From a virus: DNA of 25,666 bases. Shown here piece after piece: positions 1,478 to 20,226 of this stretch. Location of the stretch: the IMG/VR virus record IMGVR_UViG_3300035682_000177, positions 1 through 25,666 of that record; one strand, 5' to 3'. The position numbers and the translations under genes were made by a program. Under the pieces are notes generated by a model. That model was not told where the DNA came from. It saw only the letters and a program-made list of their open reading frames with translations, and did not search any database. Within the stretch, counting starts at the first letter, position 1, and every line of letters begins with the position of its first letter.

Positions 1478-1796
1478 AAAATATTATAGTGTCATTAGGT
1501 GCAACATATTCGCCTTGATTGACAGAATACGTTTCAATAGTTTGATTAGTGCAAAAGATTCTATCTCTGTGAACTAAGATATCATCATACTTTAATATTA
1601 CTTCATAGAAATGATTTTCTTTTAAATCAAATACTTTATCAAAGTAAGAGTAATAGCATGAATCGTTTACAGTAATAGATTCTGTGATAATTTCATTAGT
1701 CGTTTCGTTTCTCAATAGCATAGTATTTGCAGTTTCAAACCTTGTAGGAATAAATCTAAATACTTGTGATTCTAAAGTTTCTTGTAAAATTATCAT
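1470..1796 (-). CDS. Small beta-rich phage protein next to portal
   Basis: 108 aa (MIILQETLESQVFRFIPTRF...), predicted mostly beta from its alternating hydrophobic pattern, with a conserved-looking RIFCTNQTIETYSVN segment near residues 79-93. Proteins of this shape sit beside the portal or tail genes in many Bacteroidetes phages, but I know of no proven function; a neck, adaptor or decoration role is an inference from position. The ATG at 1796 is preceded by TACGTTTAT at 1804-1812 (minus strand), a leader shared with two other virion genes, and by the AT-rich inverted-repeat element. Its stop overlaps the portal start. Confidence 0.7.
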   Translation of the reverse strand: MIILQETLESQVFRFIPTRFETANTMLLRNETTNEIITESITVNDSCYYSYFDKVFDLKENHFYEVILKYDDILVHRDRIFCTNQTIETYSVNQGEYVAPNDTIIFYE

Positions 1797-1803
1797 CTAT
1801 ACT

Positions 1804-1812
1804 ATAAACGTA
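1804..1812 (-). promoter_or_regulatory. TACGTTTAT leader motif, copy A
   Basis: On the minus strand the sequence TTTTTTACGTTTATAG lies 7 nt before the ATG at 1796. The same nonamer lies 7-8 nt before two other virion gene starts (4963 and 11796). TACGTTTA resembles the Bacteroidetes -7 box TAnnTTTG except for the last base, but no TTTG -33 box is seen about 19 nt upstream. It may be a phage-specific promoter element, perhaps read by the phage sigma factor, or a translation signal. Confidence 0.4.
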
Positions 1813-1828
1813 AAAAACATGATTTGAT

Positions 1829-2070
1829 TTATTTTAAAGCATTTTAAAAATTTTAAAGTAATTTTAAAGTAAATTAAGGCTTAACTCGTTGTTAATCAAT
1901 GCTTTAAAGTAATTTATTTTAAAATCCTGTTTTTTAAAATTATTTTTTCATTTTACTTTTTTTTATTTCATTTTAAACATTTTAAAAGAAAAGCTTTAAA
2001 AATGCCTTTACACTATCTTAAACGCAATAAATCACTTTAAAATTACTTTAAAATACTTTAAAAATTTTAA
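1829..2070. repeat. AT-rich inverted-repeat element 1 (TTTTAAAG array)
   Basis: This fills the 327-base gap between 1796 and 2124, which has no credible ORF. By hand count it contains about 14 copies of the palindromic core TTTAAA, mostly as TTTTAAAGTA on the left side and as its reverse complement on the right side. A 21-base block at 1850-1870 recurs as its exact reverse complement at 2034-2054, so the element is an imperfect inverted repeat with a T-rich centre. The block 1979-2004 (26 bases) is the exact reverse complement of 17052-17077 in the second element. It could be an origin, a protein-binding array, a recombination site or a structured RNA; the sequence does not decide. Confidence 0.8.
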
Positions 2071-2073
2071 AAT

Positions 2074-2100
2074 AAAAAAGGGTTGACTAAATGCCAACCC
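2074..2100 (-). terminator. Rho-independent terminator after tail tube gene
   Basis: On the minus strand GGGTTG (2100-2095) pairs with CAACCC (2085-2080) across a 9-nt loop and is followed by TTTTTT. It lies about 24 nt after the stop codon of the 2124-2651 gene and ends that unit before the AT-rich element. Confidence 0.85.
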
Positions 2101-2123
2101 CTAATTAACCATGAAAAAGATTT

Positions 2124-2651
2124 TTAAACTCCTACAGTTACAGTAAAACCTGCTGCTACTAAAGTGTTCATAATAAAGTTAGCCGGTACTGGTTCTTGAC
2201 CAACTAAAGTTAAAGTATAACCAGATAAATCACCGATTGCAGCACCAGTTACAATAGTACCAGATGTTACATCCATACCATGTTTTAAACCGCAATAGAA
2301 TAAGTTACCGTTATTATCTTCAACCACTACAGTAGGCTTACCGTAGCTTAATAATTTAATTTGCTTGTTATCCTTTACAGATAATTTCTTTAATGTAAGA
2401 TTTAAGGTCTGCTCAAAGTAGGTTGTTCCGTTTTCTCTACTTGAAGTAATAGTTTGATCAAATGATGAATTACCTTTCAAATCATATTTAAACGCTACAG
2501 GTGTACCCGTAACCGTTAATATAGCATCTGTGTCTGTAACATCGTATGTAACGCCCGTTACATCTCCATCATTGATTATATAAACTGCCTTTAAACCGCC
2601 ATTGCTTGTCTTACAAGGTTCCAGCCTTCCAGCCGCGATATCACATGACAT
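2124..2651 (-). CDS. Probable major tail tube protein
   Basis: 175 aa, beginning MSCDIAAGRLEPCKTSNGG. Features visible include a YDLKGNSSFDQTI segment, SRENGTTYFEQTLNLTLKKL near the middle and a DLSGYTLTLVGQEPVPANF end. I recognise this as a protein widespread beside the capsid gene in Bacteroidetes siphophages and usually annotated as a tail or structural protein. The beta-rich makeup, small size, own terminator and position after MCP fit the tail tube subunit that polymerises around the tape measure. It could instead be a head decoration protein. Terminators both before (2675-2706) and after it suggest its dosage is set separately from MCP. The start is ATG at 2651. Confidence 0.65.
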   Translation of the reverse strand: MSCDIAAGRLEPCKTSNGGLKAVYIINDGDVTGVTYDVTDTDAILTVTGTPVAFKYDLKGNSSFDQTITSSRENGTTYFEQTLNLTLKKLSVKDNKQIKLLSYGKPTVVVEDNNGNLFYCGLKHGMDVTSGTIVTGAAIGDLSGYTLTLVGQEPVPANFIMNTLVAAGFTVTVGV

Positions 2652-2674
2652 AGTTTCTTAATTTATTAATAGTG

Positions 2675-2706
2675 AAAAAATAAGCAGAGGAACTTAATCC
2701 CCTGCT
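2675..2706 (-). terminator. Terminator between MCP and tail tube genes
   Basis: On the minus strand AGCAGGGGA (2706-2698) pairs with TCCTCTGCT (2691-2683), nine pairs with one G-U, followed by TATTTTTT. It lies 9 nt after the MCP stop. No clear promoter is seen before 2651, so it may act as a partial terminator or as a 3'-end stabilising hairpin. Confidence 0.8.
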
Positions 2707-2714
2707 ATTATAAT

Positions 2715-3665
2715 TTAGTTAGCTGCGTTTACAATTCCGTAAGTTACGATATCCTCGATAACTCCGATTTGAACGCCTGCAGTCATTCTTAAAACTACTC
2801 TTACGTTTTGAGATCCGTCTAAGTCTGACATGTCGATAATTTTAGCCTCACCCATATCAGTCAACAAACCTGTTCCAAAGAAAAGATTTGATTTCTCAGC
2901 TGCAATAGCTGTGTTAGATGCTAATCCATTTGCTACGAATAACTTAACACCGTCAAACATTAAATCACCGAATTGTTGGTTATTTCCTTGAGCGTTAAAA
3001 CCTGCAGCACCTAAACCAGATGCACCAAATCCACCCAAAGAACGAACGTATGCTCTGTAAATGTTTTGAGAAATGTAGATATGTAAATCTTCTTTACCGT
3101 AAAGTGCTGCTGGTATTGCATCAACAATTTTACCTAATTCAGCTACTACGTTAGCAGCAGTTACAGTAGTTCCTAAAACCTCCTGAGCTGGTGGCAATAA
3201 TGGATCTAAAGAAGCGATTGTAGAAAATCCTGAGAATTCTCCAACATTAGCAGAAACGCCTTTCCAGATATTGCTTTCGTTTTTAGCTGCTACTTTAGCA
3301 ACAACATGAGCCATCAAGAAATCAGCAAAAGTTTTTGGTAAAACATCAAATGCTGAATAACCTTGTTGTGCTGATAACCAATCAGAATGAAAATCTTTCT
3401 TACATAATTGCAAGTTAACTTGAAACTCTTCTGGTTGTAAAACTCTTTCAGTTAAAGTGATAGTAGATGTTGCAGTGAAATCACAGCTTGCATCTTTTAA
3501 AATGTCATCAGATGACATTTTTTTCATCACTTCTTTGTACTTAATAGAAGGCTTAATTTCGATACCACCGTTATCGATAGTAGGCGCACTTAATAATGCT
3601 GCAGCAATGATTTTATCTTTAAATTCACCTGCATAGGTTGTAGTAATACTTGTAGTTGTTGGCAT
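2715..3665 (-). CDS. Major capsid protein
   Basis: 316 aa, beginning MPTTTSITTTYAGEF. It follows the protease and scaffold genes, as HK97-fold capsid proteins do. Residues roughly 60-110 (ATSTITLTERVLQPEEFQVN, then CKKDFHSDW) and 120-150 (DFLMAHVVAKVAAKNESNIW) resemble the major capsid family of Bacteroidetes phages. The C-terminal part (VRVVLRMTAGVQIGVIEDIVTYG) fits the axial domain. The leader is AATTAAAAAAAAATG, an A-rich signal typical of strongly translated Bacteroidetes genes. A hairpin terminator follows directly. The recognition is good for the class, though no structure comparison was possible. Confidence 0.85.
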   Translation of the reverse strand: MPTTTSITTTYAGEFKDKIIAAALLSAPTIDNGGIEIKPSIKYKEVMKKMSSDDILKDASCDFTATSTITLTERVLQPEEFQVNLQLCKKDFHSDWLSAQQGYSAFDVLPKTFADFLMAHVVAKVAAKNESNIWKGVSANVGEFSGFSTIASLDPLLPPAQEVLGTTVTAANVVAELGKIVDAIPAALYGKEDLHIYISQNIYRAYVRSLGGFGASGLGAAGFNAQGNNQQFGDLMFDGVKLFVANGLASNTAIAAEKSNLFFGTGLLTDMGEAKIIDMSDLDGSQNVRVVLRMTAGVQIGVIEDIVTYGIVNAAN

Positions 3666-3682
3666 TTTTTTTTAATTTTAGT

Positions 3683-4222
3683 TTAGTTAAACATTTTTGA
3701 ATAAACCGAATCCTTAATTGATTTAGTTTTGTTTTGTGAAAATCTGAATCCCTCTGCTTTTACTTCGCTTTCTGGATTAGTTACGATTGGAGAAGCACCT
3801 GCCTCCATTGATGATAAAGAAACTTTTAACGCTTCATTTTCCGCTTTTAAAGAAGCAAGTTCCGTTCTGAAGTTTTCAATCTCTGCAAAGAAACTTTCCT
3901 TTGAAACAGATTCAACAACCCTCTTTGGTTGTGTTGCCGCTTCTACTGGCATTTCTTCCTCAACTGCAACTTCTTCTTCTTTAGCTGCTAAAGACTTAAT
4001 TACGCCTTCAACTTCTACAACTAAAACGCTGCCATCTTCTAATTTGTACTCACCTACTGGCATTGGTATTGCGCCTTCAGGAGTTACGATTCCGATTGAA
4101 TAATCTGCTTCAAATTCCTCAGCTTCAACAATGGTTACTCCATCTTCAAGCTTCATTTGAGCAAGTTTTACATCCATCGAAAGCAATGCTCTGATTTTGT
4201 TTTCTACTCTTTTATAGTCCAT
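3683..4222 (-). CDS. Probable head scaffolding protein
   Basis: 179 aa, acidic. The N-terminal part (MDYKRVENKIRALLSM, then MKLEDGVTIVEAEEFEADY) is followed by a Glu/Ala/Val-rich linker (EEEVAVEEEMPVEAA, residues 80-97) and a predicted coiled coil at about 108-140 (FFAEIENFRTELASLKAENEAL), ending SVYSKMFN. Position immediately before MCP, acidity and coiled coil are the usual marks of a scaffold that is removed before DNA packaging, probably by the protease at 4397-4963. The family itself is recognised only in general terms. Confidence 0.7.
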   Translation of the reverse strand: MDYKRVENKIRALLSMDVKLAQMKLEDGVTIVEAEEFEADYSIGIVTPEGAIPMPVGEYKLEDGSVLVVEVEGVIKSLAAKEEEVAVEEEMPVEAATQPKRVVESVSKESFFAEIENFRTELASLKAENEALKVSLSSMEAGASPIVTNPESEVKAEGFRFSQNKTKSIKDSVYSKMFN

Positions 4223-4224
4223 AT

Positions 4225-4407
4225 TTAATTATTGTTTATTGTTCTTTCTGTGTTTGTGTTTATGATTACGCTTGTTCCTTGTTGTACTAATGAACCTATG
4301 CCTTGTTGTATCAATTCACCTTCGCAACATTCCTTAGAATACTTCTTGCCATCTTTACAAAGACATGCACGATTACCGCCTTTTGGGCTTGATGTTTTAT
4401 CCGCCAT
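4225..4407 (-). CDS. Small Cys-rich conserved head-region protein
   Basis: 60 aa with cysteines at 15, 17, 27 and 28 (RACLCKDGKKYSKECCEG) after an SPKGGNR start. Small proteins of this type occur between protease and scaffold in Bacteroidetes phages. The four cysteines could bind a metal, but there are too few residues between them for a standard zinc finger. Function is unknown. It overlaps the protease end by 11 nt and is followed 2 nt later by the scaffold start, so it is embedded in the head operon. Confidence 0.7.
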   Translation of the reverse strand: MADKTSSPKGGNRACLCKDGKKYSKECCEGELIQQGIGSLVQQGTSVIINTNTERTINNN

Positions 4408-4963
4408 TTTCTAAAACCTTAATGATTTGATTAATTAAATCTTCGTGTTTTTTTAATTCTAATTTATCCGCAAAAGATCCTTCTATTGAAAACCCTTTTA
4501 TCTCACCAGACTTTACACGATTCCAAACATCATCATTATCGACTTTCATTGAAATCATCCATGTTCCAACCGGTAAATTGAACTCGTACTTTCTTGACTT
4601 ATCAAATTGCTCATCTTCAATAATCCAAGACTCTACAACTGTCATTCCTTCCAATTTATCTTGGTGCTGAATTGTTGATTTGCTTTGATTACCTTTCTGC
4701 AAAAATAATTCCGATGCTTTTTTTATTGTATCCTTTGAGAAAAAGATATAGTATTCATCTTCTCCATCTCTACGATAAATCTGTTTGTTAGGAATCAAAG
4801 CCGCTCCCATTAGAATGCGTTTCTCTGAATCCACCTCCGCAAGCTTTACCTCATATTCCTTAGCTAATGCAATAAAATTGCTTTCCATCGCTGGATAATC
4901 AACCACAGAAACGGCATCAATGCCATCTATTTCGTTATCAATTACAAGCTCTATTATTCTCAT
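4397..4963 (-). CDS. XkdF-like prohead serine protease
   Basis: 188 aa from the ATG at 4963; an ATG at 4972 would add MNR. It resembles the phage putative serine protease XkdF family: RIIELVIDNEIDGIDAVSVVDYPAMESNF at the start, then GAALIPNKQIYRRDGEDEYYIFF, a HQDKLEGMTVVESWIIEDE segment (family His region) and GTWMISMKVDNDDVWNRVKSGEIKGFSIEG (family Ser region). It probably matures the scaffold and capsid. I prefer 4963 because this places TACGTTTAT at the same distance (7 nt) as in two other genes; the 4972 ATG lies inside that motif. Confidence 0.8.
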   Translation of the reverse strand: MRIIELVIDNEIDGIDAVSVVDYPAMESNFIALAKEYEVKLAEVDSEKRILMGAALIPNKQIYRRDGEDEYYIFFSKDTIKKASELFLQKGNQSKSTIQHQDKLEGMTVVESWIIEDEQFDKSRKYEFNLPVGTWMISMKVDNDDVWNRVKSGEIKGFSIEGSFADKLELKKHEDLINQIIKVLENGG

Positions 4964-4970
4964 TCTATTC

Positions 4971-4979
4971 ATAAACGTA
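4971..4979 (-). promoter_or_regulatory. TACGTTTAT leader motif, copy C
   Basis: TACGTTTAT on the minus strand, 7 nt before the ATG at 4963. It matches copies at 1804-1812 and 11805-11813 in sequence and spacing. It occupies the short gap between the tape measure stop (5003) and the protease start, where a new promoter for the head genes would be useful. Confidence 0.4.
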
Positions 4980-5002
4980 TTTATTTATCTTTGTTACATT
5001 TT

Positions 5003-6748
5003 CTAACCGCCTAATGTTGCAGTCCTTACAATATTTCTATCTAATGCTTGTTGTGTTGTTACTTGTGAACCTACTACATAAGCTTGAACTGGTGACTGAT
5101 TACCTAAGCCTTGTGCTATCTGATTTACTCCGCTTGTTCCTACTACGTTGAATTGTGGCGCTGCTGGTACTGATGCAGTAGCTGGCATAGACGGAGCAGA
5201 TCCACCACCACCACCACCAGGAACTTGAACAGAAAGTATTTTCTTTACGTTTGAAAAAGCAGCAGTAGCAACAGCTATCGTACTTGCTATTTTTACACCT
5301 GTTCCAAATGGTTCCGGATAAATATTTTTAGCCTTCCAAACCTCAGATATACCTAAGTAAGCGTTAATAGTTGCAGTTGCAATAGCTAAGGCTTTACCCT
5401 CTGCCGTTTGTTGACCTAACATATCAGCAAAAGTGCTTAATATATTAGCTGTCTTTGCTAAAATTTCTCGCTTACCTTCATATTCTAATCTCGCTATTTC
5501 CGCTTTTTTATCTGCTGCTTCTTTTTCATCTGCTACACCTTGATCTCTTTGTGCTTTTAAATCAGCGGACATTTTTGCAAAGTCATCAACAATTTTTTTA
5601 TCCGCTGCAGCCTTTGCTAAATTATCACGCTCTTTCTTTTCGGCATCTAATTGTTCTTGATTTTTTAAATCTTGATCTCTTATTTCTTGTTGAGTTTTAA
5701 ATCTTGCTTTCTCGATTGATGCCGCTTTTTCATCTGCTGCTTTCTTAGCCGCTGCTAACTTTTCATTAGCTGCTTTTATCTTATCAGCTGCTTCTTGATT
5801 TATTTTAATACGGTCATCTTCTCGTTGCTTATCAATAGCAGATAATTCCCTATTTAATCTTTTAGCTAATGCCGCAGTATTTGCTCCTTCTTCTTTTATT
5901 GCCTCCGCATAAGCATTTTTTGCGTCTATCTTTTGTTTAGTATATTTGTCAATTTGATCTCCGTGTTCTGCTAAAAACTTTTTATTAACACTTAAAGTTT
6001 TATCTGCTGCATCCTTCAAAGAATCTAAAGCACGCTCAGCTTCCGATGTTGCTCCAACAAAATCAGTAACTGATTCAACTATATTTCCGAAAAACTCACC
6101 AACTTGTGCAAGTCCTGGAATCAAATTTAAAACCGCCTTCTTTACTTTGTCAAAGTTTGCAATCAGCAAGCCTAACCCGACTACGATTGCACCGATACCG
6201 GTAGCCGCTAATGCTATTCTTAATAACTTTAATGCGCCAGTAGATGCACCGACTACCGTTGTGTAAGCCGCTTGTGATGCCGTTAAAACTTTTTGAACCG
6301 CTACATTACTTTTTAATACTGCACCTAATTGCTTAAATGAATCTACACTTTCGCCAATCGTTTGCAAACCTTGCGATAAAGCCATTGCAGACTGAACCTT
6401 TAACAATGTCTTTTCAACATTCTCAGATTCCGAACCGAACAAAGCCATCCCGCCCTGCACCGCTGCAAAACCACCGGCTACACCACTTAAAGAAGATGAT
6501 AATGCTTTAAACTTTGCATCAGGATTAAAGGCATCCGTTAACGCTTTAGCATCACCGATTGCATCCTTTAATATACCTGCCTTTTTAGCTGCATTAATAG
6601 CCTCCTTAGATGTTGCGCCAAACTTCTCAGATAATTGCGTAACATCATTTTGTGCCTCCCTTAATTGAGCCTTTAAGGATTTAACGCTTTCAGTTGTCGC
6701 ATTTAAATTATCAGAAATTTGTAAATTAACTATTTTAGTTTCAGCCAT
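5003..6748 (-). CDS. Tail tape measure protein
   Basis: 581 aa. It starts with a coiled coil (about 15-55, TESVKSLKAQLREAQNDVTQ), then a small-residue-rich segment, a hydrophobic stretch at about 175-205 (LRIALAATGIGAIVVGLGLLI), and a very long charged alpha/coiled-coil region (270-430) rich in Ala, Lys, Glu and Asp. The end has a poly-Gly patch (PGGGGGGSAPS) and a beta-like tail. This is the ordinary composition of a tape measure protein, which sets tail length and helps DNA entry. At 581 residues it implies a fairly short siphophage-type tail. The start is ATG at 6748, overlapped by the 49-aa ORF. It sits just before the head genes, not at the end of the tail module. Confidence 0.85.
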   Translation of the reverse strand: MAETKIVNLQISDNLNATTESVKSLKAQLREAQNDVTQLSEKFGATSKEAINAAKKAGILKDAIGDAKALTDAFNPDAKFKALSSSLSGVAGGFAAVQGGMALFGSESENVEKTLLKVQSAMALSQGLQTIGESVDSFKQLGAVLKSNVAVQKVLTASQAAYTTVVGASTGALKLLRIALAATGIGAIVVGLGLLIANFDKVKKAVLNLIPGLAQVGEFFGNIVESVTDFVGATSEAERALDSLKDAADKTLSVNKKFLAEHGDQIDKYTKQKIDAKNAYAEAIKEEGANTAALAKRLNRELSAIDKQREDDRIKINQEAADKIKAANEKLAAAKKAADEKAASIEKARFKTQQEIRDQDLKNQEQLDAEKKERDNLAKAAADKKIVDDFAKMSADLKAQRDQGVADEKEAADKKAEIARLEYEGKREILAKTANILSTFADMLGQQTAEGKALAIATATINAYLGISEVWKAKNIYPEPFGTGVKIASTIAVATAAFSNVKKILSVQVPGGGGGGSAPSMPATASVPAAPQFNVVGTSGVNQIAQGLGNQSPVQAYVVGSQVTTQQALDRNIVRTATLGG

Positions 6749-6879
6749 TGCCTTTTTATTTGTTTGAACCCGCCTTTAAATGTTGTTTGTAATTCGTATT
6801 TCCCTTTCGCTATTTCGATGTTTTCGCTCTGGTTGTAATGCTCGTTTAATGTTAGCATTAATAAAATGTTCTTTATCAT
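6730..6879 (-). CDS. Small ORF (49 aa) before tape measure
   Basis: ATG at 6879 overlaps the stop of the 6876-8840 gene as ATGA, and the ORF runs to TAG at 6730, 19 nt inside the tape measure gene. The protein begins MIKNILLMLTLNEHYNQSEN and contains KGKYELQTTFKGGFKQIKRQW. Without it there would be 127 unexplained bases in an otherwise closely packed operon. It is unrecognised; the start/stop overlaps at both ends support translation. Confidence 0.6.
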   Translation of the reverse strand: MIKNILLMLTLNEHYNQSENIEIAKGKYELQTTFKGGFKQIKRQWLKLK

Positions 6880-8840
6880 AATGTTCTGAAATCGTTTAGT
6901 AAATCAAAGTCAACCTCGCCAGTAGTTAAGTCCGTAGTAAATGAATTGATAAGGTATCTTTTACCCTGCATAATAACCCTATCGTTAAGTTGTAACGATG
7001 TTAATATACTAAGTGGTAGTTTTCCTTTAATCTTTATTTGCCTTGCCTTAGAAGTGAAGATATTAGCTAAATAGTTTTGATAATAATCAAAGTATAATGT
7101 ATCTGTAATTAGACTATTATCAAGTACCGATTGTTCTACTCCAAAATTTAAAGAGTAAATAGGTCCGCTGATATTTGTATCTGCACCAAAAGCGTTATAA
7201 TCCGTTAAATTAAAGTTAGAAGTTCCATCATTAAATTTAAAACCACTTGCACCAGCCGATTGCAAAACTCCGTAATCGTATAAAATTATAGGCTTAGGGA
7301 TGTAAGGTTTTAAATCAGTCTTTAATGTATATCCAACTTGTAACGTTGTGGATAAATTGCTAAACATTAAGTTTTCAAATGGTAGATTAACGCTGTATTC
7401 TTCGCCATCAGCATCAAAGTCTTGCGCTAAGTTTCCGTATTCTAACCCATTGTTAGAAAGGTAAGCTACTGAAATAAGATTTTCGCTTTTTTGATATTCA
7501 AAATTTACACGTTTATAAGATTTCACTCTGTCTATTGTTGCCGATTCTTTAAAAATATATTGCGTTAAATCAATAATATCCCCTGATTCGTACCAGCTTT
7601 CAATTTGTCTAATGTTGTATGTTGTTCCATCTGTTGAATAACACGTTAGATTAAACATCTTTAATATTCCGGAAAAGAAATCTTCAACCTTAATATCTGG
7701 CATTAAGTTAGAAACCGCAGATCCAGAATTAAAAGCCTTCGGTGTAGTAACAGATGCTAACAAAGATTTAGTTACAAAGCCGCCATCTGATATAGCAAAG
7801 TCAAAACTAAAGTCTATTGTTAAAGCGGAATCTATTTCTATATAAAATTGAAACGAGCTTGATCCATAAGGTGTTAAATCTATAGGAATATCTAAAGGTG
7901 GAATCTGAGAAACAAAAGGGATTGCTTCAACTTGAACGCCAAATGCATAAATATACAAAGTACCATTTACTCCGTTTGCGCTACACTCCAAAGTAATCTT
8001 TGATGTATCTATTATTTCAGTTCCAAATAAACCACCAAATACAAACGTATCCGTTAACAAATCAAAGTTTACATCATAACCGTTTGGGCTTGATTTAGCA
8101 TCAAAGTCTAATATATTACGAGCTGCCGGTAAAGTAAATACATCACCATTCTTTAGCCATAGATAAGCATTCTTAAAATTATCTGTATCTAAAAAATCGC
8201 CTTCAAAAGTTACATCATAAAAATCAGATATGCCTTTGAATACTTTGCTTAATCTTAATGCTGGAAATAACTCGGTGTAAACAATAGCATTAGCCGTTAC
8301 AGTAATATCGTTAACACTTGCATCCCCGTACTGCCATGGTCTTAATGAGCTGATAAGCGGAAATTTAATATCGCTTGTGGTTTGGGCGCTTACTCTATCT
8401 TTTACATAGGTTCCATTGTATATAAAATTGAATTCGCTATAATCAACATCCCTTAAAGATAAACCTCTAAACGTATCCTTTAACGAAACTAAATTACCAA
8501 AGAAAGTAATGGTATAGTTTTCTGGCTTACCGTTTTTCATCGAAGCAGATTCCAGCTGAATCTTGCCGTTACGAAAAGGAATTGTATCAAGTTCTATGTA
8601 TGCGTTTTTTCTTCTTCTTGCATCGTAACCATTAACTAAACTATTATCATACCAATGCGAAAAGATAGCGTTGTTATTCTTAGTTGCCGGAACAGTAAAC
8701 GACTGACTAAAATCAGTATAAATTTTACTTATATCCGCAATGTTTTGAATCGAAGATGTTACACTTATTTTTTCATCATTGAATAACTCAATACGTTTTG
8801 CAACCCCGTCAATCGAAATATAGATACCTACTGTTAACAT
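6876..8840 (-). CDS. Large tail protein (probable distal tail/baseplate)
   Basis: 654 aa, begins MLTVGIYISIDGVAKRIELF. The segment SSIQNIADISKIYTDFSQSFTVPATKNNNAIFSHW is typical of large tail proteins adjacent to the tape measure in Bacteroidetes phages. The rest is beta-rich, with FSGILKMFNLTCYSTDGTTYNIRQIESWY around 390-415. I infer a tail-tip or baseplate role from its size, beta content and place beside the tape measure; exact function is not known. The ATG at 8840 overlaps the previous stop (ATGTTAA). Confidence 0.65.
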   Translation of the reverse strand: MLTVGIYISIDGVAKRIELFNDEKISVTSSIQNIADISKIYTDFSQSFTVPATKNNNAIFSHWYDNSLVNGYDARRRKNAYIELDTIPFRNGKIQLESASMKNGKPENYTITFFGNLVSLKDTFRGLSLRDVDYSEFNFIYNGTYVKDRVSAQTTSDIKFPLISSLRPWQYGDASVNDITVTANAIVYTELFPALRLSKVFKGISDFYDVTFEGDFLDTDNFKNAYLWLKNGDVFTLPAARNILDFDAKSSPNGYDVNFDLLTDTFVFGGLFGTEIIDTSKITLECSANGVNGTLYIYAFGVQVEAIPFVSQIPPLDIPIDLTPYGSSSFQFYIEIDSALTIDFSFDFAISDGGFVTKSLLASVTTPKAFNSGSAVSNLMPDIKVEDFFSGILKMFNLTCYSTDGTTYNIRQIESWYESGDIIDLTQYIFKESATIDRVKSYKRVNFEYQKSENLISVAYLSNNGLEYGNLAQDFDADGEEYSVNLPFENLMFSNLSTTLQVGYTLKTDLKPYIPKPIILYDYGVLQSAGASGFKFNDGTSNFNLTDYNAFGADTNISGPIYSLNFGVEQSVLDNSLITDTLYFDYYQNYLANIFTSKARQIKIKGKLPLSILTSLQLNDRVIMQGKRYLINSFTTDLTTGEVDFDLLNDFRTL

Positions 8841-9895
8841 ACGTTATTGATTAACTCAAATGAATAACTAAACTCAATCTCGTAATTTATATTCTTATCC
8901 TGCAAAGATGTTTTTATTGTATTTGCCTTAGTCTTAACTTCAACCGGCTTACCATCTAATAAAATAGTTTCCGATAATAACAAGTCTTGTATCAAATCGG
9001 AATAATTTTCATTAACAAAACCGGTATTCAATCTTACCGACTGACCACCGTTTATATTAAACGATTTATTTTCACCTCTTAATGGATTATAGTTAACATC
9101 ATTTGGAAGCATTCTGTAGCTCGTTCCATTTGTTTCGATTGTGTTAATCTGCACCTTAAAGAATGTTAAAAACTGCCACCCTCCAAATCGATTAATAAAC
9201 GAACAAACAACCGGTGTATATTTACATTCTGATATTGGCAAGACTGTTATCGATACCGTTTTAGTACTTAATCCAGCAACATAATTTATTGTTAATATAT
9301 TGCCGTTGTCATACGCTGCATTTATTAAGGTGTAAGGAACTTTAATTATTTTGTTAGCGTTACTATTGTAATTTACAACCGTTGCATTAGAACCGTTTAA
9401 ATCGGTATAGGTTGCGTTAAATGTATCGAAGAACGTAATACCTAAAGCATAAACATCTACATAAGGATAACTTACCGACCTATCATAATTTATGTCAATC
9501 AAAGGATCGGCTAAGAAAACAAAACCTACTGAACTATCCCCTTGATTATAACCGTTCATGTAATTAGTATATCCTGCAGTAGCTACATAGGTAGTTGTAT
9601 CAAGTAATGAATAAACACCAATCGCAGTTTCTTTGTAACGCTTTACCTTTACGTTAACAGATAAGTTATTAACCGAATCAGTTGGTGCAATGTTATCTAT
9701 AAACTCGGTTATAAATGGACTGATATTGTAAACGTTCTTTAGTTGCGTAACCGATGGAATAGGCTTTGCTAAAACGTAGTTAGCAGCAACCGGTTCCGTT
9801 GTTCCGTTGTTCCAAATAAACAGCTCTATCTTAGACCCAACTTGTGCGGCTTCGTTTACCTCGATGAAATATGGTGACCTTGTTTTAATTATCAT
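8834..9895 (-). CDS. Tail protein, beta-rich, unknown role
   Basis: 353 aa, begins MIIKTRSPYFIEVNEAAQVGSK. It looks beta-rich throughout, with many Asn/Thr/Val residues and no obvious catalytic motif. GGWQFLTFFKVQINTIETNG around 240-260 and a C-terminal KNINYEIEFSYSFELINNVC are visible. It pairs with the 654-aa tail gene, and such pairs are a regular part of Bacteroidetes siphophage tail modules. The role is probably distal tail or tail tip. Its start overlaps the previous stop as ATGA and its stop overlaps the next start. Confidence 0.6.
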   Translation of the reverse strand: MIIKTRSPYFIEVNEAAQVGSKIELFIWNNGTTEPVAANYVLAKPIPSVTQLKNVYNISPFITEFIDNIAPTDSVNNLSVNVKVKRYKETAIGVYSLLDTTTYVATAGYTNYMNGYNQGDSSVGFVFLADPLIDINYDRSVSYPYVDVYALGITFFDTFNATYTDLNGSNATVVNYNSNANKIIKVPYTLINAAYDNGNILTINYVAGLSTKTVSITVLPISECKYTPVVCSFINRFGGWQFLTFFKVQINTIETNGTSYRMLPNDVNYNPLRGENKSFNINGGQSVRLNTGFVNENYSDLIQDLLLSETILLDGKPVEVKTKANTIKTSLQDKNINYEIEFSYSFELINNVC

Positions 9896-10449
9896 TTTAT
9901 ATCTTTTAATTCGTAATCAACCATTGTATCAATATCGCTACCAAATGCTTTAATTAAATCTGTATCGATATACTTTTTATATCCTGCTTCAAATGGCTTA
10001 GTAAAAAACAGACTTGGTTTTATCCCCCTTGCCCAAATGTTTTTAGCAAGTATAATTCCAATTGTTTTATAATTGCCTTTCTTAAATTTACCGTTCTCAT
10101 CTCTTAACCTTAATCCTTTTCTTTTCGCCCAATCTTCAAGCGGCTTACTTGGCGGCCTTTTATTCTTAAAACTAAACCTACTGTTAGGTGCTTGTTGTCC
10201 TCTTATTTTAGCGTTCTTTGATACCTTAGAAGGATCTGCACCTTTTACTCCTTCGTCTTGGTAAGCTCCATATTCTGACATCGTAAACCCAACTATCGAA
10301 TAGTTGCCCTCTGTTACTATCTCACCTTTTACCGAATTGTATAAAGTCTTTGTATCATTCTTTTTACCTTTAGATAGATTTGCTCTACTCTGTTGTATTA
10401 CATAGTTTTTAAACTTAAGAAGTAAAGCCTTAGTTTCTTTTAATTCCAT
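9892..10449 (-). CDS. Probable neck/minor tail protein (gp10-like position)
   Basis: 185 aa, basic. It contains YGAYQDEGVKGADPSKVSKNAKIRGQQAPNSRFSF (about 59-94), then RPPSKPLEDWAKRKGLR, IIL-AKNIWARGIKPSLFFTKPFEAGYKKY near 130-165. The arrangement (N-terminal helix, a Y-x-x-x-Q/E-G motif, a late FFxxPF motif) is like HK97 gp10 or minor tail proteins that join tail and neck, but this family is Bacteroidetes-specific. It precedes the tail proteins and follows the probable tail terminator, which suits that reading. Confidence 0.6.
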   Translation of the reverse strand: MELKETKALLLKFKNYVIQQSRANLSKGKKNDTKTLYNSVKGEIVTEGNYSIVGFTMSEYGAYQDEGVKGADPSKVSKNAKIRGQQAPNSRFSFKNKRPPSKPLEDWAKRKGLRLRDENGKFKKGNYKTIGIILAKNIWARGIKPSLFFTKPFEAGYKKYIDTDLIKAFGSDIDTMVDYELKDIK

Positions 10450-10450
10450 C

Positions 10451-10906
10451 TTAACAGGTAGTCATGTCATTCGGTACTATCACGTCAAAGGTCATAGTCC
10501 AACCTGCAAGCTTATTTTCAAACCTATCTACAAAAGGTTCGCAGTTTACCGGTGCCGTTGTTTGTACTAATGAAGTATATAAATCCCCTCTTAATAAGTC
10601 CGAAGCTAAACGATTTGATAATGCAAGTTGTGTGTTTAAAATATCTTCCTCATTGTCATTACCTAACCATGTATCGGTAATTAAAGACTTGCTTTCGTCT
10701 ACTATATCCATAAACAAAACAGATACGTTTAAAGACATTGTGTTCTCATTTATCACCGCATTGTTTACCATGATATGGCTTAACGGAAAGATAGTCTGCT
10801 TTGCCAAATCAACATCAAATATATTACCGGTAGTTACCGTATTGGTAAATCCGTTTAGCTTAATGTAATCCTTTAACGTGTTGATGATATAGTAATATCC
10901 GTTCAT
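10451..10906 (-). CDS. Probable tail terminator/completion protein
   Basis: 151 aa, begins MNGYYYIINTLKDYIKLNGF. It has DVDLAKQTIFPLSHIMVNNA near residues 27-50 and a strongly conserved-looking C-terminus FENKLAGWTMTFDVIVPNDMTTC, which I recognise from many Bacteroidetes phages. Size, alpha-beta makeup and position before the gp10-like gene fit tail terminator proteins (lambda gpU-like) that cap the tail tube. The functional name is inferred from position. It starts 2 nt after the stop of the 10908-11063 ORF. Confidence 0.6.
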   Translation of the reverse strand: MNGYYYIINTLKDYIKLNGFTNTVTTGNIFDVDLAKQTIFPLSHIMVNNAVINENTMSLNVSVLFMDIVDESKSLITDTWLGNDNEEDILNTQLALSNRLASDLLRGDLYTSLVQTTAPVNCEPFVDRFENKLAGWTMTFDVIVPNDMTTC

Positions 10907-10907
10907 T

Positions 10908-11063
10908 TTATCTACAATTTATTTGCATCCAATTTTGTGCAATCTTATAAGCATCCTTAAGCCTAAATATATCTTTATGGTTAACTATTTTTATATTGAC
11001 TTGTTGACCTGTCATGATGTGTATGTAACATTGTACATGTGCAACCATCTCATTTACTGTCAT
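10908..11063 (-). CDS. Small ORF (51 aa) after chaperone frameshift product
   Basis: ATG at 11063 gives MTVNEMVAHVQCYIHIMTGQ and ends INCR at TAA 10908. Its start overlaps the TGA (11062-11060) that ends the -1 frame of the tail chaperone, giving the ATGA arrangement used repeatedly in this genome, and its stop lies 1 nt before the next ATG. This packing strongly supports translation. The sequence is not recognised; an alpha/beta fold is likely. Confidence 0.65.
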   Translation of the reverse strand: MTVNEMVAHVQCYIHIMTGQQVNIKIVNHKDIFRLKDAYKIAQNWMQINCR

Positions 11064-11796
11064 TTCTTTTTAATCATTTTCATTTCCAAATCAACCTTTT
11101 GTTTCTCAAATGTCAAGTAGGTTAAAAACTTGTGAACTGGTAACTCTGTGACTTCATTAAATCGGAGAATGTTTCCCTGAGCTGCTCCATAGATAGAAGC
11201 GTACCATCCCCAGCGTTTTCCAAATTGTGCTTGTTCAGAATATTCGCCACCTCCGGATTCGCCGCTAAATAAGACATCGTACTGTTCACTAAGTCTTTGC
11301 CTAAATCCCAAAAAAAAACCATTGCGCCTAAAGCAACATCTAAAGGCATGTCCTTTAATACATCGGAATACTTATCTGATCCTTCGTACTTCTCAATCAG
11401 ATACCTATCTGAGAAACTTTTTGTAACCGGTCTAAATAATACTGCCATCGCTTGGTGCATCTTTTGCCAATCAGAAATGTAAGCATCTAAGTCTATAACC
11501 TCACCTGCTGACATATTATCAAGGTTAGGGATAAAGCCATAATCAACACCGTTTAACTTAAATTTATTAACCAGCTTATTCTTATCCGTAAACAAAGAAC
11601 CTATCTTTGCGCTTATCTCCTCAACATCTTTAAAAGACATTAGCATAACAATCTTTAGACTAACATCACAAAAGATTTGAATCATCTTGTGCTTAAGGAA
11701 ATCCTCTGTTTGCCCTTCAATACTTGATACCTTTAGAAAGGATTGGTATTGATGCAACTTGATTTCGTTTAAACTTGTTGGTATTGTAATTTTCAT
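11060..11796 (-). CDS. Tail assembly chaperone, long form via -1 frameshift
   Basis: The long product would join residues 1-162 of the 11796 ORF to 83 residues of the -1 frame (11311-11060), about 245 aa. The -1 part contains FGKRWGWYASIYGAAQGNIL, NEVTELPVHKFLTYLTFEKQK and a basic end, which looks like genuine protein and resembles the T-domain of tail chaperones. Slippage is possible on nine T (11318-11310) read GTT TTT TTT TGG, a T TTT TTT heptamer. The -1 frame has no ATG near its start and its TGA overlaps the next gene's ATG, so both the need and the benefit of frameshifting are seen. By analogy with lambda gpG/gpGT, the long form would bind the tape measure and recruit tube subunits. 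Confidence 0.75.
11122..11796 (-). CDS. Tail assembly chaperone, short form (0 frame)
   Basis: 224 aa, begins MKITIPTSLNEIKLHQYQSF. Mostly helical, with a central LFRPVTKSFSDRYLIEKYEG segment and LDVALGAMVFFWDLGKDLVN just at the slip site. After the slip site the 0 frame continues for another 62 residues (DLVNSTMSYLAANPEVANIL and so on) that also look like real protein, so about 190 bases are apparently used in two frames. Lambda gpG-like function is inferred from position before the tail genes and from the frameshift. The start has the TACGTTTAT leader 8 nt upstream. Confidence 0.75.
   Translation of the reverse strand: MKITIPTSLNEIKLHQYQSFLKVSSIEGQTEDFLKHKMIQIFCDVSLKIVMLMSFKDVEEISAKIGSLFTDKNKLVNKFKLNGVDYGFIPNLDNMSAGEVIDLDAYISDWQKMHQAMAVLFRPVTKSFSDRYLIEKYEGSDKYSDVLKDMPLDVALGAMVFFWDLGKDLVNSTMSYLAANPEVANILNKHNLENAGDGTLLSMEQLRETFSDLMKSQSYQFTSF
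11311..11317 (-). promoter_or_regulatory. Slippery heptamer for -1 frameshift
   Basis: T TTT TTT in the 0 frame of the chaperone gene (codons 160-162), within nine consecutive T and followed by GGGATTTAGG. It is a canonical X XXY YYZ site. I did not identify a convincing downstream pseudoknot by eye. The Gs after the run could also permit transcriptional slippage on T9. Confidence 0.75.
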
Positions 11797-11804
11797 GTTA
11801 TCTT

Positions 11805-11813
11805 ATAAACGTA
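11805..11813 (-). promoter_or_regulatory. TACGTTTAT leader motif, copy B
   Basis: TTTTTACGTTTATAAG on the minus strand, 8 nt before the ATG at 11796, in the 38-nt gap after the TerL stop. With copies at 1804-1812 and 4971-4979 it forms a set of three leaders, each at the start of a virion sub-operon. Confidence 0.4.
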
Positions 11814-11834
11814 AAAAGATGGTATTGTTTTTTT

Positions 11835-13067
11835 TTAATATACTGCGTACGTTCCTCGATGTGGATTGTCTAAATGGAATATCACATTGTACCTGATAGC
11901 ATCTATTAAGTGATTCCAATCATCAAGATAAAGCTTAGATTGCTTATTGATGTAAACATAATTATTAAACTCCTTCGCTATGTTAGAACTATCTGGATCA
12001 ACAATTATAGTATAATCTTGCATCCTTATAATCCCACTTTCAATAGTGCCTTTCTTAACTGCTTGTATATTTATACCGGCATGTTTTAAATCATCTATCA
12101 ATCGAGGTTCTGCACTATCTGCTATAATCAAATTACGTTGGCATTTATCCCGTAACATGATTGCCAAGATATGCGTCTTAATACCTCGTTCATAAATATG
12201 CTCCTTAACATAGATAATCTTTTTAGCCTTATCGATTGCTACCTCAGCAAGTGAATCTGGATCTATCGAGAATCCAAAATCTAACCCAAATGAAGTCTGC
12301 AATCCATCAGGGTTGAACTGTCCAAACTTCCAATTTGTAAACACAACACCCTCAGCTTTGTCTAACCAACCTCCAAGTATCTGATGCTCGTACTTCTTTG
12401 GATTGTTTAACCTGATCCTTTCAATTTCATCTAAGAAAGACTTATCTAAATTTTCTATGTTATCGTTGAAGGTAGTATGAATGTAGGTTGTGTTTCCTTT
12501 GATACCATTAAACCCTTCTTGAACTCCTTCTTGCTCAAAGAATCGTTTATAAATCCAATGTTCTTTCGTGGCTGGGTTAAGGATTAATATAATACGGTTC
12601 TGGATTCCCTTTTGTCTAATAGATAGATTTATCTTATCAAAGATTAACTCATCGTTTAGTTCTTCGGCTTCGTCTACAATCCAAGTTGTAACGCCTTGCA
12701 ATGACTTAAGGTTTGCAGTTTGGTCACCGCTTGATGTCTTTATGCCTCGAAATATTATCTCGCTTCCAGATGCTTTATTTTTAATCTCTGACTTTGTTAT
12801 ATCAAAATAGTCATGAGCATTTAGTAGGCTTATCTTCTCTTGAAATTCTGGAATAATAGACAAGTGTGCGCTTGTCATTGTCTGCCTGGTAAACAGTATT
12901 TTATGTCCTGCTTCGAATGAAAGTATTGATGCAAAGGTACCAACACCAAAAGACTTAGACGAACCACGCCCTCCAGTAATTACAAAGAATCTGGTATCAT
13001 TCTTTAACGCTTCGTACTTTCGGTTAAGTTCAATCATAATATAAATGCTGTCTTTCCATGCTGTCAT
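11835..13067 (-). CDS. terL: Terminase large subunit
   Basis: 410 aa ATPase-nuclease that drives DNA into the prohead. Walker A GGRGSSKS lies at 32-39, Walker B TWIVDEAEE around 128-136 with D132 and E133. RNase H-like nuclease acidic residues are visible as D263 (LDFGF), D317 (IIADSAEPR) and D389 (HLIDAIRY). Length and motifs are normal. The ATG at 13067 adds MTAWKDSIYI before MIELNRKYEAL; many relatives start at the latter (13037), so the true start is uncertain. It is preceded by a tRNA-like gene, not by the usual tight TerS overlap. Confidence 0.95.
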   Translation of the reverse strand: MTAWKDSIYIMIELNRKYEALKNDTRFFVITGGRGSSKSFGVGTFASILSFEAGHKILFTRQTMTSAHLSIIPEFQEKISLLNAHDYFDITKSEIKNKASGSEIIFRGIKTSSGDQTANLKSLQGVTTWIVDEAEELNDELIFDKINLSIRQKGIQNRIILILNPATKEHWIYKRFFEQEGVQEGFNGIKGNTTYIHTTFNDNIENLDKSFLDEIERIRLNNPKKYEHQILGGWLDKAEGVVFTNWKFGQFNPDGLQTSFGLDFGFSIDPDSLAEVAIDKAKKIIYVKEHIYERGIKTHILAIMLRDKCQRNLIIADSAEPRLIDDLKHAGINIQAVKKGTIESGIIRMQDYTIIVDPDSSNIAKEFNNYVYINKQSKLYLDDWNHLIDAIRYNVIFHLDNPHRGTYAVY

Positions 13068-17239: not shown

Positions 17240-19498
17240 TTAGTTAATTTTCACCTGCTTTAAATAGTTATAAATAGATTGAACCGATACGTTAAGCAAT
17301 AAGGCAACCTCTTTAATATCTACCTCTGGATTAGCTTTGTATAGTTCTAAAAACTGCTGTTTCTTGTTTTTACCTTTATTCAATCCTATAATAGATTTGT
17401 ATTCATTTACCTTTGTTGAATTGCTTTTTATCTTCTTAGCTGTTGCTATAAAGTATTTGCTTAACCTCTCTGCTTTTAAGACGCTGTGCTGGCTTATAAT
17501 CATTGAGCTATCTACTACGTCATCTGAAAAGAATTTGTCCATTACATCGATTAATAATGCGAATCTCGGAATGTATGACTTTTGCTTGGGTAGCATGCTT
17601 TTCATATACTCGTTTTCGTTGTCATCATTTTGAATAGTTGTGATATCGTTAAAGATTCTTTTCCATTCCGTTTTAGCTTCGTCTGAAAACCTCGCAACAT
17701 TTGGGACTATCTCGCCATCGTCTGAATACTTAACTACATTTGCCTTTATTGATTCGTAAAAAGAAAGAACACTATCCGAATACCATTTAATCATACTATA
17801 ATCAATCTCTTTATCGTTGTAAGATTCGATAACTAAATCAGGATAAGATAAAAGCATACGATCCATAAAACCATTTTCTTTGTTTTCGTCTGTATAAAAC
17901 GTGTTAAAGATTGAAGGCTGAATACCACCAAGTACCGGAATTAATGGGTTTTCAACAAACGAACCAGCTCTACTCATTCTATTAAGTGATACCGATTTAC
18001 CAGACCAAGTAGATAACCAAAACTCAAGATCAGAACCAGCACGATACTTGTTCATATCCTTTAACCATCCTGCAAGCTCGTCTTTAAAAACACCAACCGC
18101 ATTCTTCGATTCTTGATGCAAATCAACTAAAGCCTCTAATGTAATATCATTGGCTATAAACTGCGTCTTTGATGGCTTACCTACTTTCTCATGCTGCTTT
18201 TTCTCGTCTTTGCTTAACTCGTTATATTCATTGAACTTATCAGACTTTTTGATGTAGTCCTTTATCTCCTTTGAATTTGCTTTAAGTAATGGAAATATGA
18301 TATTGTTTATCGATGGTGTTTTACCTAAACCAGCTTTTCCGACTATCGCCATCCAAAGCGTTACATTCTCACGCCAACCAGACTTTACCTCAACTTGAAT
18401 GCTATTACCTATTATAACCGATGATAACCAAAGCATAGAACAACCCATGTAATCTATTGAAGCGTCAAGCGTTTTCCTGCATTCGTTCATGTATGCTTGT
18501 AACGGTAACGGAAATATATCAATAGGAAAAATCAGATCATCTGTATTATAAACCAAAGGATGGTAATCAGCTACAATCTCTTTAGATCGTTCTATAATCT
18601 CGCTTTTTCTTCTGGTTCCGTATCCATCGTGATATAACTTAGAAGCAGATGCTTTAAAATCTCCATTGTGTTCTTTAAATGTGTAAGCACTAAACGGACT
18701 GATTAACTTTTCATGCGGGTAAATTGTTGCAGTGCTGAAAAGATACATGCAGTTTTTATCCTTGTAAACATAACCAGAATGCGGCGAATCACCTCCGTAT
18801 CTTTTTATAATATACTTATCTTTTAAATCAGCTACAATCTTAAAATCTAAGCCTATAACATCAAAAATAGAATGCTTAGCGTTATATGCTTCCCAAGGTG
18901 TAACCTCGTTTTCAATAGTTTCAATTTGTTTTTTTGTATCAATTTGTATTGTTTTTTCCTCTTCTATATAATTATAAGTTCTAAGACATGACCAAAGTAT
19001 ATTTCTATCATCCTCTGATATTAATTGAATTGATGAATATTTATTTTTAGTTATACAATTTTCATAAATTACAGCATAACCAAAACGCCCCCTGCTTTCA
19101 ATTATTGCTTCTTTCTGACCTTGTAATTTTGCTATTTTAGTATTTCCTTCAATTTTATTGCATCTATATAAAATATGATAACCATTATTTTTAGTTTTAT
19201 AAATAACAAATTTTTCATAAAAATCATCAATATTATCAGATAGAAAGGAAATTACTTCATTCCAAAATTCTTTTTGTTCTATTAATGTTCCTAAAACTTT
19301 TAAATCAAAATCAATTATTTCCAAGTCGTTATATCCTGAAACTATTGCCCATGAATCAGATTCAATTTTGTCTATTTCATCAGGTGTTAAATGATTAGTT
19401 TGATTTTTTTTCCAAGATCCTTTTGGAGTTTTATCATTATTTATTGGAATAATAGAAAATGATAATTGTGCCAGCCTTTTTAAAATACCTTTTTCCAT
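17240..19498 (-). CDS. PriPol-DUF3987 primase/helicase
   Basis: 752 aa. N-terminal bifunctional primase-polymerase domain (about 1-180) with catalytic IIDFDLK (D63, D65), GYHILYR (106-112) and SRGRFGYAVIY. The middle and C-terminal part is DUF3987: Walker A variant GKAGLGKTPS near 385-395 and GGIQPSIFNTFY with GFMDRMLLSYPD around 520-545. A C-terminal helix-turn-helix (DIKEVALLLNVSVQSIYNYL) ends it. It likely primes and unwinds the phage genome. Its ATG overlaps the preceding GIY-YIG stop (TAATG). The first 180 codons are clearly AT-richer than the rest, so the PriPol half may have been exchanged. Confidence 0.9.
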   Translation of the reverse strand: MEKGILKRLAQLSFSIIPINNDKTPKGSWKKNQTNHLTPDEIDKIESDSWAIVSGYNDLEIIDFDLKVLGTLIEQKEFWNEVISFLSDNIDDFYEKFVIYKTKNNGYHILYRCNKIEGNTKIAKLQGQKEAIIESRGRFGYAVIYENCITKNKYSSIQLISEDDRNILWSCLRTYNYIEEEKTIQIDTKKQIETIENEVTPWEAYNAKHSIFDVIGLDFKIVADLKDKYIIKRYGGDSPHSGYVYKDKNCMYLFSTATIYPHEKLISPFSAYTFKEHNGDFKASASKLYHDGYGTRRKSEIIERSKEIVADYHPLVYNTDDLIFPIDIFPLPLQAYMNECRKTLDASIDYMGCSMLWLSSVIIGNSIQVEVKSGWRENVTLWMAIVGKAGLGKTPSINNIIFPLLKANSKEIKDYIKKSDKFNEYNELSKDEKKQHEKVGKPSKTQFIANDITLEALVDLHQESKNAVGVFKDELAGWLKDMNKYRAGSDLEFWLSTWSGKSVSLNRMSRAGSFVENPLIPVLGGIQPSIFNTFYTDENKENGFMDRMLLSYPDLVIESYNDKEIDYSMIKWYSDSVLSFYESIKANVVKYSDDGEIVPNVARFSDEAKTEWKRIFNDITTIQNDDNENEYMKSMLPKQKSYIPRFALLIDVMDKFFSDDVVDSSMIISQHSVLKAERLSKYFIATAKKIKSNSTKVNEYKSIIGLNKGKNKKQQFLELYKANPEVDIKEVALLLNVSVQSIYNYLKQVKIN

Positions 19499-20226
19499 TA
19501 CGCTATAATTAAATTAGTTCTATTTCTTAACCTTCCGTTTAAATAACATTTTAATGTGCAATAATTTATTTCGTAAACTTCGCTTGCGTGTTTAATACTA
19601 TCAAAAAAAACTCCTGAAATAGTATCTAAAACAATAAAAGAACATGGGCTTATTTCTCTATCTCTAATTTTTTCTTCTTGTGTTTTTTTAATTCCAAATT
19701 TTTTATTTAGTATTCCCTTTCTACCAAATTTTATACGTTCATCCGCTGTAAATATACGCCCATACATAGGATTTTTATTTCCTGAAAATTTACCCTTTAA
19801 TGAATTAGATATTTTTTTCTTTATCTCATCAGTATGTTTTATTCCTTTTCTAAAAGAATTACCAATTAAATAATCTAAATTTTTATTTTTAGCCATCTTT
19901 TTTTTGGTTTCATCAGAAAGACTACCACTAATATCATCATAACCAGTTAATCTACAATTTAAACCATTTTTATTAGAAGCATTAAATAAATCTTGATAGT
20001 ATCTTTCAAATCTATTTAAATCATGTGACTCACATACCTCAATAATCTCAAAAATATGATTTTCAAAGCCGTATTTTTTAAATGAATTAAAAAGTCTTGG
20101 TTGATTTTTAGGTAATTTTTTTTTATAAGATTTTAATCTTACCTCTATATTAATGCTTTGACCAATATAAATTTTTCCAGTTGGATTGGTTATTTTGTAA
20201 ATACCAATTATAGGTTTTATTATCAT
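19498..20226 (-). CDS. GIY-YIG homing endonuclease
   Basis: 242 aa. GIY at 8-10 and YIG at 20-22 with R30, then NRFERYYQDLFNA carrying the catalytic Glu. The middle has NUMOD3-type DNA-binding motifs (DETKKKMAKNK, TDEIKKKISNSLKGKFSGNK), and the C-terminus (VFFDSIKHASEVYEINYCTLKCYLNG) looks like a NUMOD1/HTH module. Intact and of normal length. It lies free-standing before the primase, whose start it overlaps, in a low G+C stretch. Its likely recognition site would be the equivalent uninterrupted locus of a related phage. Confidence 0.9.
   Translation of the reverse strand: MIIKPIIGIYKITNPTGKIYIGQSINIEVRLKSYKKKLPKNQPRLFNSFKKYGFENHIFEIIEVCESHDLNRFERYYQDLFNASNKNGLNCRLTGYDDISGSLSDETKKKMAKNKNLDYLIGNSFRKGIKHTDEIKKKISNSLKGKFSGNKNPMYGRIFTADERIKFGRKGILNKKFGIKKTQEEKIRDREISPCSFIVLDTISGVFFDSIKHASEVYEINYCTLKCYLNGRLRNRTNLIIA

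Follow-up and report, generated by a model that had tools for sequence, protein, structure and literature searches.

The window, the 25,666-nt stretch of IMGVR_UViG_3300035682_000177 that was analyzed, raises the question of whether a gene beside its terminase gene yields two proteins by slipping at a run of nine T, and whether these proteins are the tail-assembly chaperones of the phage. The evidence described below assigns the locus, with a probability of about 0.8, to the G/GT-type tail-assembly chaperone genes of Bacteroidota siphophages, with a −1 fusion at the T9 run and a dual-coded tail. Here, G denotes the 0-frame protein and T the domain encoded in the −1 frame.

Direct reading of the locus (Table 1) bears out the layout proposed in an earlier sequence-only reading, namely, a T9 run holding T TTT TTT in slip phase, a −1 frame whose stop overlaps the ATG of the next gene as ATGA, and a 0 frame that continues well beyond the slip. 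Codons 160 to 163 of the 0 frame are GTT TTT TTT TGG (V F F W). Past the slip, the 0 frame has 62 codons before its stop at 11122, and the −1 frame has 83 before its TGA at 11062-11060. With the −1 frame taken as a C-terminal extension, the predicted G-T fusion has about 245 amino acids. The same reading held that the −1 frame contains no ATG; none is usable as a start, but two ATG do occur at its extreme 3′ end (EMKMIKKK), where they are useless for that function. The window contains four T9 runs versus the 8.5 expected from dinucleotide shuffles. Since such runs are thus not above chance in the window, the case rests on the homologous loci.

Table 1. Features of the slip locus and of the associated genes in the window
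Feature	Position	Strand	Evidence or remark
0-frame protein, G-like, 224 aa	11122..11796	-	Read directly; phrog_32199 (unknown function), E 3e-16
Residues 1-162 of 0-frame protein, common to both products; last 62 codons dual-coded		-	
T9 slip site	11310..11318	-	T9 or T10 in 359/359 loci
Heptamer T TTT TTT, X XXY YYZ phase	11311..11317	-	Direct reading
−1 frame, T-like domain, 83 aa after slip	11060..11311	-	Three-helix model, pLDDT 80
Dual-coded stretch, 189 bases, 0 and −1 frames	11122..11310	-	
+1-frame TAG shortly past run	11301..11303	-	
Next ORF, 51 aa; ATG at 11063	10908..11063	-	ATGA overlap with −1-frame TGA
Terminase large subunit, immediately upstream	11835..13067	-	Terminase_3, E 1e-33
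Tape-measure-like protein, presumed client	5003..6748	-	phrog_3336 "tail length tape measure protein", E 8e-10

A slip site conserved in phages of Bacteroidota

Homologs were searched for from two independent starting points, the 0-frame protein and the −1 protein, and the T run was located in 359 of the loci retrieved. These loci represent 76 lineages, nearly all below 65% core identity, with a few variants of interest added by hand. Some of them are the same contig fetched twice, and the 340 loci complete enough for the substitution test hold 262 distinct sequences. Set aside from the run counts were L285 and L286 (plasmid records with many broken frames), L031 (truncated), and L242 (internal deletion).

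The run is T9 in 349 of the 359 loci and T10 in the other 10, with T7 or T8 in none. The search anchored on the −1 protein, which is blind to the run, found T9 in 77 of 78 loci, the exception being L242, with its internal deletion. Homologs lacking the run, which were to speak against a slip, were thus not found apart from truncated, deleted, or error-rich records. The −1 open reading frame (ORF) spans approximately 78 to 93 codons in nearly all loci, and its product carries the conserved motif FGxKWGWYxSIYALAxGD. Early stops in the −1 frame, likewise named beforehand as adverse evidence, are confined to L033, where a single TAG lies about 40 codons past the heptamer, within the KWGWY part of the motif; this may be a broken copy, a sequence error, or a recoded stop, and the frame is intact in the relatives L287 and L288. 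The −1 transition that joins the C-terminal domain to the upstream product, a feature of G/GT genes (in which the shift may also be +1), is kept in the relatives, which include the cultured Nonlabens phage P12024S.

In 43 of the 76 lineages, the stretch of the −1 frame that begins at its upstream stop and ends 20 codons beyond the slip contains no ATG, GTG, or TTG; with no start codon within reach, T needs the slip in those lineages. The possibility that the −1 ORF starts on its own at the TTG within the run (11311) was rejected for this reason and because many relatives have TTA or TTC at that position. In 198 of 199 loci, the +1 frame stops 2 to 3 codons past the heptamer, a proximity that is partly forced by dual coding; across the 76 lineages, this stop is never more than 11 codons away. 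The coupled start proposed for the next gene is retained in part of the family, with the ATGA overlap present in 41 of 73 lineages but not in all.

Taken together, the −1 slip site is real and conserved across the 359 loci. The phage family to which it belongs is one of Bacteroidota (flavobacteria and relatives); among a sample of 395 Bacteroidota genomes, no further prophages were found. The records L285 (CP045836.1) and L286 (NZ_CP040811.1) are circular "plasmids" of 66 to 67 kb assigned to Lysinibacillus and Escherichia fergusonii, in which the homolog of this Bacteroidota phage gene has broken frames and a run shortened to T8 (L285) and T7 (L286). Both look less like plasmids than like error-prone assemblies of a contaminating phage genome, perhaps in dimeric form.

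Slippage by the ribosome or by the polymerase

We infer that both products are expressed, that they act as chaperones, and at which level the slip takes place. The majority of expression would yield G, whereas a minority would be read one base back at the U9 and would yield the G-T fusion, in which the helical C-terminal domain of 83 residues would take the place of the 62-codon 0-frame tail. Of the programmed −1 frameshift of the sequence-only reading, the −1 transition at the T run stands and is conserved, but a locus with a run of at least nine and no conserved stimulator does not establish that the slip is ribosomal.

A tandem ribosomal slip on U UUU UUU has, in our estimate, even odds. 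It is slightly favored because of precedent, as the tail chaperone shifts described in the open-access literature searched are all given as translational. The heptamer lies in the phase expected of a −1 ribosomal site, though any T9 contains an in-phase heptamer, which makes the phase uninformative with respect to slippage by the polymerase. Sites of −1 ribosomal frameshifting commonly, though not necessarily, have a conserved stimulator. Around the run, no conserved downstream RNA structure was detected (mean z of ∼0 in 45 lineages), Shine-Dalgarno-like motifs were not enriched (7 of 45 lineages, with a background of 13.7%), and no Rfam family matched the locus.

The −1 product may instead be made by RNA polymerase slipping on the T9, with ribosomes reading the altered transcripts normally; this explanation is less probable than the ribosomal slip but is a serious contender. 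Under it, mRNAs with 8 or 11 U would lead into the −1 frame and give G-T, whereas those with 10 U would lead into the +1 frame and give G without its tail. Bacterial polymerases slip efficiently at nine A/T, and selection acts against such runs in many genomes (PMC5009743; PMC1088944). An A/T run of about this length or longer, as expected of a transcriptional slippage site, is kept across the relatives here; the run is at least nine in 359 of 359 loci, always longer than the seven T of the heptamer that a ribosomal slip needs. Nevertheless, other T9 and A9 runs do occur in these loci (23 and 43, respectively, in 1.25 Mb). Where the codon before the two phenylalanines has no T in its second position (Ala in the clade of L120, Ser or Gly in that of L033), the codon after them is always TTN, restoring nine; this compensation is significant at the lineage level (one-sided Fisher test, 0.004), in a test that was post hoc and involves only two separate clades. 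The residue after the two phenylalanines varies (W, Y, F, S, C, or L) and is always coded by TNN, although what the two frames encode may be enough to hold the flanking T's in place. The missing conserved ribosomal stimulator also points toward the polymerase, as does the fact that ribosomes of Bacteroidia do not recognize Shine-Dalgarno sequences (PMC9976891).

Transcriptional slippage that gives two products from nine A/T is known from Thermus dnaX and from insertion sequence elements (PMC5009743, PMC1088944), but these are cellular or transposon genes, and no phage tail gene is described there as using it. Nor did the open-access literature searched contain a description of the shift in the present family or of a tail chaperone using transcriptional slippage. 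The full proposal, in which the chaperone fusion arises from polymerase slippage at an invariant T9/T10, with the ratio set at transcription and a third, tailless G made from +1 transcripts, is tentative and somewhat doubtful. A mixture of ribosomal and polymerase slippage is unlikely.

A probable tail-assembly chaperone pair

A likely chaperone role, which we infer from the frame architecture, the tape-measure gene in the module, the apparent one-chain relatives, and a weak fold match, supports the identity proposed in the sequence-only reading. The AlphaFold2 model of G is of the alpha/beta type, with a mean pLDDT of 82; it is confident up to approximately residue 180 and less so in the overlap-encoded tail. 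Fold searches among viral proteins retrieved a large set of unnamed relatives. Several BFVD proteins of about 226 to 267 amino acids (A0A516L611, A0A516L5A8, A0A6J7WJY4, and A0A6J5N0W0) match the models of both, so that G and T are apparently joined in one chain, judging from two separate fold matches; this would be consistent with G-T as a natural unit. The weak fold match is to A0A8S5V8Z8, a protein annotated (not characterized) as a tail assembly chaperone (probability of 0.99, E value of 0.038). Sequence profiles from Pfam, PHROGs, and the PDB do not name G or T a chaperone, profile comparison revealed no relation to lambda G or T, and a fold search of the PDB returned no match. In Flavobacterium phage 6H, a 191-amino-acid protein is a possible remote fold relative, but neither a run of nine nor a clear T domain was seen there.

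The terminase, the tape-measure-like protein, and the XkdF-type protease mark the window as carrying a siphophage-like structural module, where a chaperone is to be expected. The gene adjoins the terminase gene rather than lying between the major tail protein and tape measure genes, which is the usual, not absolute, location of G/GT genes; five ORFs (51, 151, 185, 353, and 654 amino acids) separate it from the tape-measure-like gene. This atypical position, together with the fact that no family profile names the gene, would suit a programmed shift pair with another structural role, such as a head-tail or tail-completion protein. We regard that as improbable, given that the module includes a tape-measure-like gene, that an unsystematic look at the window noticed no other frame-shifted candidates, that the G/GT pattern consists of such a helical C-terminal extension read in the −1 frame, and that several relatives apparently hold G and T in one chain.

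As a presumed chaperone pair, the two predicted products resemble gpG and gpGT of lambda, where a minor −1 fusion carrying an added C-terminal domain is made besides an abundant 0-frame product and the slip also lies in the 3′ part of the gene (PMC5009743). If lambda is a guide, the tape measure would be coated by G, the major tail protein would be brought in by the T domain of G-T, and the ratio of G to G-T would matter. Lambda differs in slipping on GGGAAAG, after which 6 codons remain in its 0 frame, whereas the present family has T9/T10 and usually 53 to 84 remaining codons, which are under selection; the 0-frame tail is here itself a maintained protein segment. The lambda genes lie between those for the major tail protein and the tape measure, while the present gene adjoins that for the terminase, and no sequence relation between the two systems was detected. 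A true homolog (27 to 28% identity) with T9 and the −1 domain follows the terminase gene in the Nonlabens phages P12024S and P12024L (Inhavirus), but its 0-frame tail has only about 25 codons. In the P12024S record (JQ823122.1, 23136-23830), the −1 domain is not annotated as a frame-shift product, and a separate short hypothetical ORF is called instead.

The genes of the window from 1470 to 13067 have an unusual order, with the terminase, the putative chaperone, small ORFs, the tape-measure-like protein, and the protease followed by two ORFs. These ORFs (2715-3665 and 2124-2651), unnamed by profiles, look like capsid and tail tube proteins. Between 3683 and 4972, PHROG 24921 is matched in one part by the XkdF-like protease (4397-4972) and in another by the ORF at 3683-4222; an ORF of 60 amino acids (4225-4407) lies between these two, as if a protease-scaffold gene had been split. 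A GIY-YIG homing endonuclease gene with a NUMOD3 motif (19498-20226) lies directly upstream of the primase/helicase gene, which it abuts, and contains an A9 run on its coding strand.

Both frames of the overlap are under selection

The substitution test was based on 78 disjoint pairs with a median core identity of 0.925. At fourfold sites of the T frame, the sequences differ by 0.062 (0.047 to 0.077) in the overlap and by 0.196 (0.142 to 0.246) where T is encoded alone, and at fourfold sites of the G frame they differ by 0.261 (0.227 to 0.296) where G is encoded alone. The confidence interval of the overlap value does not overlap those of the singly coded parts, and the value is 0.068 when only T-frame fourfold sites without the risk of a 0-frame stop are considered. 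Variation at positions 1 to 3 of the 0-frame codons follows the same pattern. The third position dominates in G alone (0.043, 0.023, and 0.212), the peak is at position 2, the wobble position of the −1 frame, in T alone (0.022, 0.146, and 0.053), and variation is low with no dominant wobble in the overlap (0.032, 0.082, and 0.070). Past the slip, the 0 frame stays open for a mean of 61 codons versus 13.6 expected when T is recoded with the codon usage of the family. The depressed variation at fourfold sites and this openness show that both frames are selected at the protein level and are not merely open.

The overlap of about 190 bases therefore encodes two proteins, as the sequence-only reading had supposed, and both are under selection. 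A nonfunctional 0-frame tail, kept open solely because the −1 protein is conserved, would agree with the low confidence of its model (pLDDT below 50 at residues 194 to 203 and 215 to 224) and with its shortness in the P12024S lineage (25 codons). It is very improbable for two reasons. Compared with the singly coded parts, the overlap shows roughly three- to fourfold less variation at silent sites of the T frame, even at those unable to produce a 0-frame stop, and the openness is far above that expected from the protein sequence of T. A frameshifted pseudogene or an assembly error, as might be suspected at a homopolymer, a common site of sequencing error, and with T8 and T7 in the two plasmid records, is rejected on the identical run and frame relation in 359 loci from many assemblies and on the selection in both frames.

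Frame-shifted tail chaperones are already well known, and the length of the overlap is not unprecedented. The claim that it exceeds the length typical of G/GT genes is correct relative to lambda but overstated in view of SPP1, in which the 173-amino-acid gp17.5, with 112 residues common to gp17.5*, has a predicted −1 shift at the U-rich heptamer UUUUUUC that leaves 61 codons in the 0 frame (PMC6316719). The SPP1 site has six U, in contrast to the run of nine here, and dual selection is shown for the overlap of the present family. The new elements are the family itself in phages of Bacteroidota, the demonstration that both of its frames are selected, and the invariance of its run at nine or ten T.

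For a large group of phages in which the genes examined are annotated only as hypothetical and the fusion is missed, these results identify a probable pair of tail chaperones, and they make the dual-coding stretch an unusually well documented one. Should polymerase slippage lie behind the invariant nine, then in Bacteroidota, where the ribosomes also disregard Shine-Dalgarno signals, phages would have arrived at a hallmark of the tailed phages through a different molecular mechanism.
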